DNA of 34,613 bases from an uncultured Bacillota bacterium (lineage in GTDB: Bacteria; Bacillota_I; Bacilli_A; RF39; UBA660), in assembly GCA_947303895.1 (NCBI GenBank), contig CAMYZQ010000006.1, positions 1 to 34,613 on the forward strand, read 5' to 3'. Position 1 is the first letter of the stretch, and the number at the start of each line of letters is the position of its first letter. Below are positions 9,455 through 15,680 of this stretch, piece after piece. The notes under the pieces were generated by a model, which was given only the letters and a program-made list of their open reading frames with translations, had not been told where the DNA came from and did no database searches. The position numbers and the translations under genes were made by a program.

Positions 9455-11557
9455 ATGAGAGAAAAAGTACCGAATAAAATAAACGTAAATAAATTTGTTA
9501 TTTTATTTGGACTTTTTTTATTTGCTGTAATAATTGCAAGACTTATATTTTTAAATTTGTCTCCTAGTATAGATGGTATTAACTTAAGTGATTTTGCAAA
9601 AAATAGAAATACAGTTAATAAAACATTAAAAGCTAATAGAGGAACTATATATGATTCTAATAATGAAGTATTAGCAGAAACAGTAGATTCATATACTTTA
9701 GTAGCTTTCTTAGATAAATCAAGAAGTAAGAATTCTACTAAACCAAGACACGTAGTAGATGTAGAAGCTACTGCTAAAGCATTAGCTCCTAAAATAAATA
9801 TGACTGAAGAAAGACTTATAGAACTTATGAGTCAGAAAGGATTATATCAAGTAGAACTTGGTCCTGGTGGTAAAGGATTATCTGAACTTCAAAAAGAAGA
9901 AATAGAGAAGTTAGAATTACCTGGTATAGGATTTATATCTACTAAGAAAAGATATTATCCTAATCTAGACTTTGCTTCATATGTTATTGGTTATGTAAGA
10001 GAATATGATGATGGTGAAGTAAAAGGTGAAATGGGTATAGAAGCTAAATATGATAGTGAACTAACTGGAGTAGATGGTTCTGTTACATATCAGCAAGATG
10101 CTCTAGGATATAAACTTATTAATTCACCTGAAATAAGAATAGAAAAAGAAGATGGATATGATATATATTTAACAATAGACTCTAATGTTCAATTAATGAC
10201 AGAAAGAGCATTAAATGAAGCTTTTGGTAGATCATATGCAACTAAAGCAATATTTGTAGTAGCTGAAGCTAAAACAGGTAAGATAATAGCATCTGCTACT
10301 AAACCTTCATTTGATCCAAATATTAAAAATATAGAAAACTACCTAGATCCATTAGTATCTTATTCATATGAACCAGGATCTACTATGAAAACATTTACAT
10401 ATATGGCTACTATGGAAAAAGGTAACTATAATGGTCAAGATACTTATCAATCAGGTACTATTAAAATAGATGATTATACTATTAAAGACTGGAATACTTA
10501 TGGTTGGGGTAATATTACATATGATTATGGATATGCTCAAAGTTCAAACCTAGGAGTAGTTAATTTAACTCAAAACTATTTAACTGGTCAAGAATTAAAA
10601 GATTATTTAAAGAAAATAGGATTTGGTTCTAAAACAGGTATAGAGTTACCTGGAGAAGTATCAGGTAAAATAGATTTCCAATATAAAGTAGAAGTAGCTA
10701 CAGCATCATTTGGTCAAGGTATAACTATTACACCAGTTCAAATGATTAAAGCTTTAACAGCTATATCTAATGATGGATATATATTAAATCCTACAATAGT
10801 AGAGAAAGTAGTATCTCCATCTACTGGAGAAGTAATCTATCAAAATAAACCTCAAAAGGGAACTAAAGTAGCTTCTAAAGAAACTGTTACTAAGATTAAA
10901 TCATTAATGAATGATGTTGTAACTATAGGAACAGGAACTAACTTTAATATGGAAGGTTATGACATTATAGGTAAGACTGGTACAGCAGAAGTATATAACG
11001 CTAATACAGGAGGATACTATAATACTACTTATAGAAATATAAGATCTTTTGCAGGTATGTATCCAAAAGATAATCCAAAATATATTATTTATATAGTATT
11101 TGAAAATGCTCCATCAAGTAATGAAATGGCTGATGCTGTTAAATCACTTATTCAAGATATAGAAGCTTATTATAATTTAACTAATGTAAGAGCAAATACT
11201 AACTCTGTTCAAAAAACAGAAAACTATTCTAATAAAAAGATTAATGATGTAAAAACTATACTTGAACAAAGTGGTATTAAGTATGAAGTAATAGGAGACG
11301 GAGATGTAGTTATTAATCAATATCCAAAAGAAAATAACTATGTTGATGGTAAACTATTATTAAAAACAAATGGTAATATATCTGAAACTAATTTATCTGG
11401 TTATTCATCTAAACTATTAAGGAATTATTGTAAGCTTATTAATGCTGAATGTAATATATCCGGTAGTGGTTATGTAACTAACTATAGTTATGAAAAAGAT
11501 GAATCAGGTAAGATAATAAAAGTTAATGCAGAATTAGTATTACCTACAGTACAATAA
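9455..11557 (+). CDS. pbpB: Division transpeptidase (class B PBP) with C-terminal PASTA-like region
   Basis: Septal peptidoglycan transpeptidase anchored in the membrane, working with FtsL/DivIB. One membrane helix (about 14-34), a class B dimerisation domain (about 55-230, NRGTIYDSN), then the transpeptidase domain with all three catalytic motifs: STMK (309-312), SSN (363-365) and KTGT (507-510). Residues about 594-640 resemble a PASTA domain, and the following 60 residues may be a second, diverged one. The 700 residues and the PASTA tail fit Firmicute PBP2B/PBP2X/SpoVD; location after ftsL favours the vegetative division enzyme. It ends the mraZ operon, with a terminator at 11559-11584. No murE or mraY follows, unlike the usual order. 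Confidence 0.94.
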   Translation: MREKVPNKINVNKFVILFGLFLFAVIIARLIFLNLSPSIDGINLSDFAKNRNTVNKTLKANRGTIYDSNNEVLAETVDSYTLVAFLDKSRSKNSTKPRHVVDVEATAKALAPKINMTEERLIELMSQKGLYQVELGPGGKGLSELQKEEIEKLELPGIGFISTKKRYYPNLDFASYVIGYVREYDDGEVKGEMGIEAKYDSELTGVDGSVTYQQDALGYKLINSPEIRIEKEDGYDIYLTIDSNVQLMTERALNEAFGRSYATKAIFVVAEAKTGKIIASATKPSFDPNIKNIENYLDPLVSYSYEPGSTMKTFTYMATMEKGNYNGQDTYQSGTIKIDDYTIKDWNTYGWGNITYDYGYAQSSNLGVVNLTQNYLTGQELKDYLKKIGFGSKTGIELPGEVSGKIDFQYKVEVATASFGQGITITPVQMIKALTAISNDGYILNPTIVEKVVSPSTGEVIYQNKPQKGTKVASKETVTKIKSLMNDVVTIGTGTNFNMEGYDIIGKTGTAEVYNANTGGYYNTTYRNIRSFAGMYPKDNPKYIIYIVFENAPSSNEMADAVKSLIQDIEAYYNLTNVRANTNSVQKTENYSNKKINDVKTILEQSGIKYEVIGDGDVVINQYPKENNYVDGKLLLKTNGNISETNLSGYSSKLLRNYCKLINAECNISGSGYVTNYSYEKDESGKIIKVNAELVLPTVQ

Positions 11558-11693
11558 AAAAAGAGACGAATAATCGTCTCTTTTATTTTTACAATTCGAA
11601 GGCGCCCCCCTGAAGTTGCGCCTTCTTAAAAAAGAATAAAAAGGGGTTGGCTAGTGTGATACTAGCAGCCAATTCGCCATTCGGGAATTGGTA
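11558..11693 (-). ncRNA. Candidate structured small RNA upstream of recG
   Basis: A non-coding, locally GC-rich segment between the PBP terminator and the recG promoter. It holds three hairpins: GAAGGCGC/GCGCCTTC (11598-11605 with 11618-11625); CTAGT/ACTAG (11651-11655 with 11661-11665, extendable by GG/CC); and CCAATTC/GAATTGG (11669-11675 with 11685-11691). CCCCT in the first loop (11607-11611) can pair with AGGGG at 11642-11646 as a pseudoknot. On the minus strand there is a consensus TTGACA (11728-11723) with TAATAT 17 bases later (11705-11700), and the transcript would end at the bidirectional terminator, giving about 135 bases. No known RNA family was recognised. The strand is inferred from the promoter and terminator only; a + strand structured RNA is the alternative. 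Confidence 0.5.
11559..11584 (+). terminator. Bidirectional terminator after the PBP gene
   Basis: Perfect 11-bp stem AAAAGAGACGA/TCGTCTCTTTT (11559-11569 with 11574-11584), 4-base loop, T run on the + side and a long A run upstream that becomes a T run on the minus strand. It can end both the PBP transcript and a minus-strand transcript from the structured segment at 11585-11693. Confidence 0.85.
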
Positions 11694-11699
11694 TCAATT

Positions 11700-11728
11700 A
11701 TATTAATGATTTTAGGTTGTTTTGTCAA
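11700..11728 (-). promoter_or_regulatory. Candidate minus-strand promoter for the small RNA
   Basis: Reading the minus strand: TTGACA (11728-11723), 17-base spacer, TAATAT (11705-11700). A better TATAAT exists 3 bases further on (11702-11697) but at 20-base spacing. The consensus -35 is notable, because most promoters here lack one. Confidence 0.45.
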
Positions 11729-11735
11729 CTATAAA

Positions 11736-11765
11736 TTGAAAAAATATTAAAAAAAATGATATAAT
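11736..11765 (+). promoter_or_regulatory. Promoter of recG
   Basis: TTGAAA (11736-11741), 18-base spacer, extended -10 TGATATAAT (TATAAT at 11760-11765), 18 bases before the recG ATG. The structured segment lies upstream of this promoter, so it is not the recG leader. Confidence 0.75.
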
Positions 11766-11783
11766 TTATCTAGGTGATAACAT

Positions 11784-13733
11784 ATGTTTGGTTTAGATAC
11801 TATAAAAGGCATTGGCCCTTCTACAATTGATAAATTAAATAAGCTAGATATATATTCTGTTGAAGACTTAGTTTCTTATTATCCATATAAGTATAAGTTA
11901 CTAAGAAAAACTTCTTTAGAAGAAGAAAAAGTAACAGTATCAGGTAAAATATTATCTATGCCAACAGTATCTTATTTTAAAAAGATGAATAGACTTTCAT
12001 TTCAAATGGAAGTAGATAATAAAGTAGTAACAGTTACTATTTTTAATAGAGTATTCTTAAAAGATAAATTAACTATAGGTAAAGTAATAACAGTTATAGG
12101 TAAATATGAAAAGAATACTATTACAGCATCAGATATAATTCTTTATGATATAGGAAATGGTACTACTGTTATTCCTGTATATCATTTAGTAAAGGGATTA
12201 ACATCTAAAAAATTAAATACATATATTAATGATGCTTTAAAGTCATCATATGTATATGATTATATTCCAGAAGAACTATCAAACAAATATAACTTTATAA
12301 CTAAGAAAGAAGCTATTTATAAAGCTAATAATCCTACGTCTTTAAAAGACTTAGATGATTCAAGAGATAGACTTAGATATGAGGAATTATTTCTTTATTC
12401 ATTAAAAATGAATTATTTAAAAGATAAAAGAGATAACTCAGGTATATCTATTAATATTGATAGAAATAAAATAAAAGAATTTATTTCATCTCTAGAGTAT
12501 TCTTTAACAAAAGATCAATTAAATGCTTTAGAGGATATCTTCAATGATATGTCTTCACCTGAACGTATGAATAGACTAGTAGAAGGCGATGTAGGCTCCG
12601 GTAAAACCATAGTCTCTTTAATAACAATGTATACATATAAATTAAATAACTATCAATCAACTTTAATGGCTCCAACTGAAATACTTGCTATTCAACATTA
12701 CAATACTATGACTAAGTTATTTAAAGATTTTAATGTAAATGTAGCATTAATAACTTCATCTACTAAGAAAATTGAAAAAGATAAAATATATGAAGGTGTT
12801 AAAGATGGGTCTATTAATATGGTTGTTGGAACACATTCTTTATTAAATGAAGACTTAGAATTTAATAATCTTGGTCTAGTAGTTACAGATGAACAACATA
12901 GATTTGGTGTTAATCAAAGAAAGAATTTAAGAAATAAAGGTAGCGATGTAGATGTGTTATATCTTTCTGCGACACCAATACCTAGGACGTATGCTTTAAC
13001 TCTTTTCGGTGATATGGATATATCTATTATTGAAAGTAAGATATCTGGTAGAAAAGAGATTATTACTAAAGTATTTAAGAATAATCAAACTGATGATTAT
13101 TTAAATATGATATATAAAGAATTAAAGGAAGGTCATCAAATATATATAGTATCTCCTTTAATAGAGTCAGAAGATGAAAAACTAGATATTAAAAAACTAA
13201 AAGATAAATTCTCTTTAGCATTTAAAAACTATAATATAGATATTCTTCATGGTAAAATGAAATCTAGAGAAAAAGATGAAATAATGAATAAGTATAAGAA
13301 TCATGATATTGATATACTTATATCTACAACTGTAATAGAAGTAGGAGTAGATGTTAAGAATGCTACAATGATAGTTATTTTTGATGCAGAGAGATTTGGA
13401 CTTGCTACACTTCATCAGTTAAGAGGAAGAGTAGGAAGAAATGATATGCAATCATATTGTTTATTAGTATCTAATAAAGAAACAGAAAGACTTAAAATAA
13501 TGGAATCTATCCATGATGGGTTTAAACTTTCAGAAGAAGACTTCAAGCTTCGTGGATCTGGAGATTTATTTGGAACGAGACAACATGGAGATATGAATTT
13601 TAAAGTAGCTAAACTTCCAAGAGATTTAGATATCTTAAAGAAATCTAATGAAGATTCAAAAGAAATATTAAATAATATTTCTAATTATCCATTACTTCAA
13701 GGAATAATAAAAGAAACAATAAAGCATGATTAG
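11784..13733 (+). CDS. recG: RecG, branch-migrating DNA helicase
   Basis: ATP-dependent translocase that remodels stalled replication forks and Holliday junctions. N-terminal wedge/OB domain with GIGPSTIDKLNKL (9-21); helicase motif I GDVGSGKT (268-275); motif II DEQH (369-372) followed by RFGVNQR; motif III LSATPIPRT; motif VI region LHQLRGRVGR; RecG-specific TRG region GSGDLFGTRQHG near the C-terminus. The 649 residues are slightly shorter than typical. Start chosen by AGGTGAT at 11772. Own promoter at 11736-11765. The region after the stop begins another small-RNA-like unit; no terminator is obvious directly after recG. Confidence 0.97.
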   Translation: MFGLDTIKGIGPSTIDKLNKLDIYSVEDLVSYYPYKYKLLRKTSLEEEKVTVSGKILSMPTVSYFKKMNRLSFQMEVDNKVVTVTIFNRVFLKDKLTIGKVITVIGKYEKNTITASDIILYDIGNGTTVIPVYHLVKGLTSKKLNTYINDALKSSYVYDYIPEELSNKYNFITKKEAIYKANNPTSLKDLDDSRDRLRYEELFLYSLKMNYLKDKRDNSGISINIDRNKIKEFISSLEYSLTKDQLNALEDIFNDMSSPERMNRLVEGDVGSGKTIVSLITMYTYKLNNYQSTLMAPTEILAIQHYNTMTKLFKDFNVNVALITSSTKKIEKDKIYEGVKDGSINMVVGTHSLLNEDLEFNNLGLVVTDEQHRFGVNQRKNLRNKGSDVDVLYLSATPIPRTYALTLFGDMDISIIESKISGRKEIITKVFKNNQTDDYLNMIYKELKEGHQIYIVSPLIESEDEKLDIKKLKDKFSLAFKNYNIDILHGKMKSREKDEIMNKYKNHDIDILISTTVIEVGVDVKNATMIVIFDAERFGLATLHQLRGRVGRNDMQSYCLLVSNKETERLKIMESIHDGFKLSEEDFKLRGSGDLFGTRQHGDMNFKVAKLPRDLDILKKSNEDSKEILNNISNYPLLQGIIKETIKHD

Positions 13734-13782
13734 ATATATAAATAATATTTGTAAATTCTCATGATAAAGTAAGTCAAACAAA

Positions 13783-13811
13783 TTGACAAAAGTATTAAAA
13801 TGTTTTACTAT
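13783..13811 (+). promoter_or_regulatory. Promoter of the small RNA downstream of recG
   Basis: Consensus TTGACA (13783-13788), exact 17-base spacer, TACTAT (13806-13811). Predicted transcription start is near 13818, the first base of the first hairpin. Confidence 0.65.
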
Positions 13812-13817
13812 AAATAT

Positions 13818-13909
13818 AGCATAACAAGATAAAAGTTATGCTCACTTTTACTGGTTTTTGTAAAAGTGAACCAAACCCCCTGAAGGAGCCTTGTGGCTCC
13901 GCTTTTTTT
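13818..13909 (+). ncRNA. Candidate small RNA of about 92 bases, three hairpins
   Basis: Non-coding unit with its own promoter and terminator. Hairpin 1: AGCATAAC/GTTATGCT (13818-13825 with 13835-13842). Hairpin 2: TCACTTTTAC/GTAAAAGTGA (13842-13851 with 13860-13869), loop TGGTTTTT. AACCA just after it (13869-13873) can pair with TGGTT in that loop, suggesting a pseudoknot. A single-stranded CCCCCTGAAG (13876-13885) precedes the terminator hairpin GGAGCC/GGCTCC and T7. A long in-frame extension of the next gene would cross this segment, but the protein it would encode is not gene-like. No known family recognised. An attenuator-type leader of the downstream regulator is the alternative, though that gene has its own promoter after the terminator. 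Confidence 0.6.
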
Positions 13910-13911
13910 AT
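13885..13911 (+). terminator. Terminator, identical to the one at 15654
   Basis: GGAGCC, loop TTGT, GGCTCC, then GC and seven T. The 27 bases 13885-13911 are identical to 15654-15680. Confidence 0.88.
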
Positions 13912-15653: not shown

Positions 15654-15680
15654 GGAGCCTTGTGGCTCCGCTTTTTTTAT
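15654..15680 (+). terminator. Terminator after the SIS gene
   Basis: GGAGCC, loop TTGT, GGCTCC, GC and seven T; exact copy of 13885-13911. Confidence 0.88.

Follow-up and report, generated by a model that had tools for sequence, protein, structure and literature searches.

Either side of recG, in a 34,613-nucleotide (nt) stretch of contig CAMYZQ010000006.1 from an uncultured Bacillota bacterium (assembly GCA_947303895.1; the whole stretch is hereafter the window), lie two short transcription units, here called RNA A and RNA B. On balance we favour reading them as lineage-wide small antisense RNAs, in which B carries a trans-acting C-rich seed and A is able to sequester B. A preliminary description of this DNA had drawn attention to a 10-base plus-strand word, CCCCCTGAAG, at 11606-11615 and 13876-13885, and had considered such a word unexpected twice at this composition: both positions proved exact, there is no third exact copy in the window, and dinucleotide shuffles predict 0.01 copies against the two observed. 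Nor is the word a common genomic repeat, as the whole draft genome (1.13 Mb, about 71% complete) holds the same two exact copies and none of a reversed-pattern control, a count that at this completeness does not fully exclude further copies of CCCCCTGAAG. The upstream RNA had been assigned to the minus strand, and this stands: a promoter, TTGACA-17-TAATAT, reads from 11728 to 11700, and a same-strand promoter accompanies 184 of the 190 distinct A copies compared from relatives. As A is a minus-strand and B a plus-strand unit, the alternative that both are transcribed from the plus strand fails, and the two transcripts are complementary.

The predicted fold of A comprises two 5' hairpins, single-stranded CCAACCCCUUUUUAUUCUUUUUU, and then a GC-rich hairpin with a 12-nt loop, AACUUCAGGGGG; that of B has two hairpins, then single-stranded ACCAAACCCCCUGAA and lastly a terminator. 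As had been proposed, the B word is unpaired in its fold and the A word lies in a hairpin loop, in which there is weak inner CU/GG pairing. The best predicted interaction between the two RNAs here joins UUCAGGGGG to CCCCCUGAA, with a net energy of -12.3 kcal/mol after opening costs, compared with best values of -6.7 kcal/mol (B shuffled) and -5.5 kcal/mol (A shuffled) from 60 shuffles each; a plus-strand reading of A attains -6.9 kcal/mol with B, at another site. Seventy-two cognate pairs from relatives were treated in the same way. The 60 that bear the loop have a median of -8.9 kcal/mol, with the loop-seed site the best interaction in every one, and the 12 without it have a median of -1.5 kcal/mol, a level that shuffled A also reaches. 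B departs from CCCCCUGAA in 3 of the 12 loop-less pairs and in 0 of the 60 loop-bearing ones, a confinement of seed changes that is suggestive in a count uncorrected for relatedness. The pairing is conserved far more than chance would allow, and together with the predicted energies this supports the earlier interpretation of a loop-to-linear regulatory pair. A has the property expected of an RNA sponge, namely conserved complementarity, longer than chance, to the seed of another small RNA (sRNA).

Both RNAs are widespread in the family, which was sampled through 291 genomes from about 150 genera of mostly uncultured gut Bacilli, among them metagenome-assembled bacteria recorded as 'uncultured Bacilli / Tenericutes / Erysipelotrichaceae'. 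The A region as query matched most genomes of the family; an exact 22-nt piece of the A core is present in 246 of the 291, and the B word CCAAA(N)CCCCCTG in at least 170, with controls near zero for both. A was absent from the 12 genomes of other families tested, and of the two B-word matches outside the family one sits on a 3-kb contig, possibly contamination, and the other looks coding; both were set aside. Across the A copies, a 36-nt stretch that extends from hairpin 2 to within the core hardly varies, the arms of hairpin 1 include compensated pairs (e.g. CCAAATC/GATTTGG), and CAGGGGG is kept in 148 of 190 despite 142 different 3' stems. The stems of B likewise vary widely (62, 77 and 44 distinct forms across hairpins and terminators), and AACCCCCUGAA, its only near-invariant single-stranded stretch (0.90 to 1.00 per position with a looser detector, the flank being less conserved), is the exact complement of the A loop word; in some relatives CCGAACCCCC or UAAAACCCCC replaces CCAAAACCCCC. 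Among copies with context, 116 of A diverge from recG; 63 of B sit immediately downstream of that gene, and in a minority the RNAs are found elsewhere. No description of either RNA was found in the open-access literature, and neither has an Rfam match at gathering score in the window, where permissive thresholds gave nothing convincing. Judged by sequence, A and B would each represent a new RNA family; their interaction as partners is conserved, and further targets are predicted for them.

In the mechanism that we propose, B would act in trans through single-stranded AACCCCCUGAA, pairing with RNAs that carry its complement, which in several relatives would include the untranslated regions (UTRs) of tiny hydrophobic peptide genes resembling type I toxins. 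A would be a second regulatory RNA, whose own invariant core matches the leaders of a helix-turn-helix (HTH) regulator gene in some relatives and whose 3' terminator loop would display a decoy copy of B's target word. The sequence itself establishes both transcription units, the strand of each, their conservation and the complementarity between them. From this we infer that the two pair in the cell, loop to linear, over 8-10 bp, with A probably sequestering B, though B may instead remove A or each may titrate the other.

Extra copies of B's word in relatives often lie antisense to very small genes, such as MNKLFILNILLILVIIVIVIFN (tandem), MKEKYFYQIIILFLLFLLLIIIIFK, MTKKDFLIVILLIIIILLILF, MRKDISSLIIEILLILVILELI, MNKKCREDIFLLIVLILVLALLILIIKN (tandem) and MKKDCQILFHYIIILLLLVIIIYLLNQQ (multi-copy), each with GGGGGTTTTGG in its 5' or 3' UTR. 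Roughly 12 of 15 GGGGGTTTTGG sites other than those of B fall in UTRs of such genes, across 7 genera, compared with 0.85% of random positions; the 12 comprise 10 passed by a script filter and 2 accepted by eye, and part of the set came from a pattern that requires a ribosome-binding site and ATG, the first cases having come from an unbiased word search. The genes encode hydrophobic peptides of 20-30 residues and have ribosome-binding sites. In size, hydrophobicity and tandem arrangement the peptides resemble type I toxins and may be regarded as putative toxins; none matches a Pfam or NCBIfam model. The mark of a type I antitoxin, complementarity to an mRNA for a small hydrophobic peptide, is found for B in these 7 genera, where B would repress the peptide mRNAs. 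This draft genome has no peptide-gene site, and no other match to the complement of B within 2 mismatches over 13 nt. Shine-Dalgarno sequences were also considered as targets of B here and rejected: among the CAGGGG places read in this genome, CAGGGGG was confined to A, the antisense of B, a position beside a transfer RNA gene and one coding region.

Two further observations concern the peptide genes. One relative (G023, loci L325-L330) has a multi-copy toxin-like module, in which a gene for a hydrophobic peptide of 28-29 residues has TTCAGGGGGTTTTGG in its 3' UTR and the opposite strand has, behind a promoter, a B-like RNA that contains two hairpins and CCAAAACCCCCTGAA. The peptide genes at L363, L368, L381 and L398 share an upstream TTTTGACA(T/A)...TTGTCGA-like element, which may be a common operator.

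A also has candidate partners of its own. In relatives from 4 genera (G013, G019, G049 and G107, and more weakly G221) an HTH-like regulator gene is preceded, at a distance of 40-180 nt, by the complement of A's core and hairpin 2 (AAAAAGAATAAAAAGGRGTTGGCTAGT). The complement spans 26-40 nt (L415, L416, L426, L427) and scores 22-30 on alignment, where shuffles reach 17 at most. In three of these genomes the complement runs into a terminator-like hairpin (GCTAGTATTAAGTACTAGC, then T6-7), so that pairing with A could, by inference from sequence, open it. Within this draft genome the only match to the A core within 3 mismatches is A itself. A 24-nt match in rsmH of one relative (L089) was rejected as a target, since it is not kept in the rsmH of the window. 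Elsewhere (L414, G015:C1, around 75217), some 40 nt identical to hairpin 2 and the core of A occur with no clear gene nearby and without A's promoter, hairpin 1 or terminator.

Several results weigh against our preferred reading. About 20% of A copies lack the loop while B is retained, and the core of A is kept also where the loop is absent, so that neither RNA exists solely for the other. Compensatory changes between the A loop and B are not found among relatives: the pairing is preserved with both sides invariant, which is conservation without covariation. A conserved CU(U)C before the loop Gs can pair weakly inside the loop, predicted loop accessibility is low in most A copies, and use of the B 3' end as an integrase attachment site could explain part of its conservation. 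Since a fifth of A copies do without the loop, the A-B link is common but dispensable, and the pair seems to belong to a larger network, in which other genes carry sites complementary to each RNA and neither is exclusive to the other. These same losses, together with the compaction of the loop by inner CUC/GGG pairing and the other complementary sites for B in relatives, speak for a rival reading in which A and B do not regulate each other, B binding G-rich targets and the A loop resembling one on other grounds, such as being bound by an RNA-binding protein or being a preferred terminator loop. We consider this unlikely, though deserving of some weight: the match between the invariant loop word and the invariant B stretch holds at every base for 7-9 positions, which exceeds any match internal to A (core CCCCU with AGGGG, net -5.0), and the loop-seed site is the best interaction in all loop-bearing pairs.

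The five complementary bases within A also allow for a pseudoknot, in which loop AGGGG pairs with core CCCCU and the match to B is secondary. We give this little credence, as the core is invariant even where the loop is lost, CAGGGGG is kept though internal pairing needs only AGGGG, and the predicted energy is 7 kcal/mol weaker than that of A with B. Hardly any credence attaches to the shared word being a DNA-level recombination or integration site copied either side of recG. The words are direct repeats on the plus strand and the 3' end of B looks like a place where elements with tyrosine integrases attach, but no integrated element is seen at A, where the word is always the loop of a variable stem on the strand of the A promoter, and the other complement copies lie in small-gene UTRs rather than at element ends. 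Our preferred reading, of B as a trans-acting RNA that A is able to sequester, could be extended to a family-wide circuit, in which B would be a general chromosomal trans-antitoxin, one seed silencing many unrelated hydrophobic-peptide toxin mRNAs, and A an anti-antitoxin that would both sponge B through its terminator loop and open the HTH-leader hairpins through its own invariant core; this extension is tentative and, taken whole, rather doubtful.

Known systems offer parallels for both RNAs. RosA has been shown to be a sponge of RoxS in Bacillus subtilis (PMC8216469). In RosA with RoxS (and FsrA), and in RsaI with RsaE of Staphylococcus aureus, a G-rich stand-alone RNA binds the C-rich seed of a second sRNA, as is predicted for A and B, and RosA/RoxS is the closest proven case. 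No sequence relation to either pair was detected: the RsaE/RoxS model (RF01820) scores 14.2 bits in the A region against a cutoff of 79 and is not listed for B. A also differs from RosA and RsaI in presenting its G-rich word in a terminator loop, in flanking one gene together with its partner and in having its own invariant antisense core. B resembles the LhrC family of Listeria in layout, with hairpins ahead of a single-stranded C-rich stretch of the CCAAACCCCC type and then a terminator, and LhrC (RF00616) is its best weak Rfam resemblance, at 22.3 bits against a cutoff of 110; unlike LhrC, B is usually linked to recG and is predicted to have A and small peptide genes as partners. In trans-encoded type I antitoxin systems the small RNA is encoded away from the toxin gene, and its complementarity to the mRNA for the tiny hydrophobic peptide is limited (PMC8309996). 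Like B, IstR-1 (with tisB) and AgrB (with dinQ) are trans-encoded sRNAs complementary to such an mRNA; B differs in being far more widely conserved than the peptide genes, and in having one seed for several unrelated peptide sequences. If our reading is correct, a large and mostly uncultured gut lineage holds two regulatory RNA families that are new and very strongly conserved, and their interaction as RNA partners is built in and testable from sequence. A single trans seed would also be matched by many unrelated toxin-like peptide genes, which bears on how these genes are silenced and on the evolution of sRNA sponges.

Table 1. Features of the recG neighbourhood in the window, in window positions.
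Feature	Position	Strand	Basis
RNA A (unit)	11553..11693 (about)	-	fold z -6.9, terminator included; core in 246/291 family genomes
Promoter of RNA A, TTGACA-17-TAATAT	11700..11728	-	sequence; kept upstream in 184/190 A copies
RNA A hairpin 1, CCAATTC...GAATTGG	11669..11691	-	fold; 38 arm pairs among relatives
RNA A hairpin 2, GCTAGTATCACACTAGC, sequence-invariant	11650..11666	-	relatives' comparison
RNA A invariant single-stranded core, CCAACCCCTTTTTATTCTTTTTTAA	11627..11649	-	relatives; complement in HTH-gene leaders, 4 genera
RNA A 3' hairpin, stem GAAGGCGC/GCGCCTTC	11598..11625	-	stem variable, 142 distinct in 190 copies
RNA A loop word, CUUCAGGGGG, complement of B	11606..11615	-	word search and pairing prediction
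recG, between the two RNAs	11784..13733	+	A divergent in 116 copies, B just downstream in 63
Promoter of RNA B, TTGACA-17-TACTAT	13783..13811	+	sequence
RNA B (two hairpins, single-stranded seed, terminator)	13819..13911 (about)	+	fold z -5.6; relatives
RNA B single-stranded seed, ACCAAACCCCCTGAA; AACCCCCTGAA near-invariant	13870..13884	+	relatives' comparison
RNA B word, CCCCCTGAAG, predicted to pair with A loop	13876..13885	+	word search and pairing prediction
RNA B terminator	13885-13909	+	sequence

RNA A occupies the interval between the 3' end of a penicillin-binding-protein gene (11557) and recG. Its 3' hairpin has no U-run in this genome, and its end is therefore placed at a shared bidirectional terminator (11584-11559), where an RNA of about 140 nt probably stops. 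A short open reading frame, MANWLLVSH, was considered as a sign that A is an mRNA and rejected, as it is not conserved.

The 3' end of B has features of its own. A perfect 27-nt copy of its terminator (13884-13910) lies at 15654-15680, after a SIS-domain-like gene two genes downstream. The end itself (13884-13911; in relatives L117 3354-4526, L131 1823-2998 and L331) resembles an attachment site: the terminators that follow CCCCCTGAA are swapped wholesale between close relatives, and contigs often break there. At L117 and L131 a tyrosine integrase gene adjoins the B 3' end, with a Mob-type relaxase gene, identified by eye, also present at L117.
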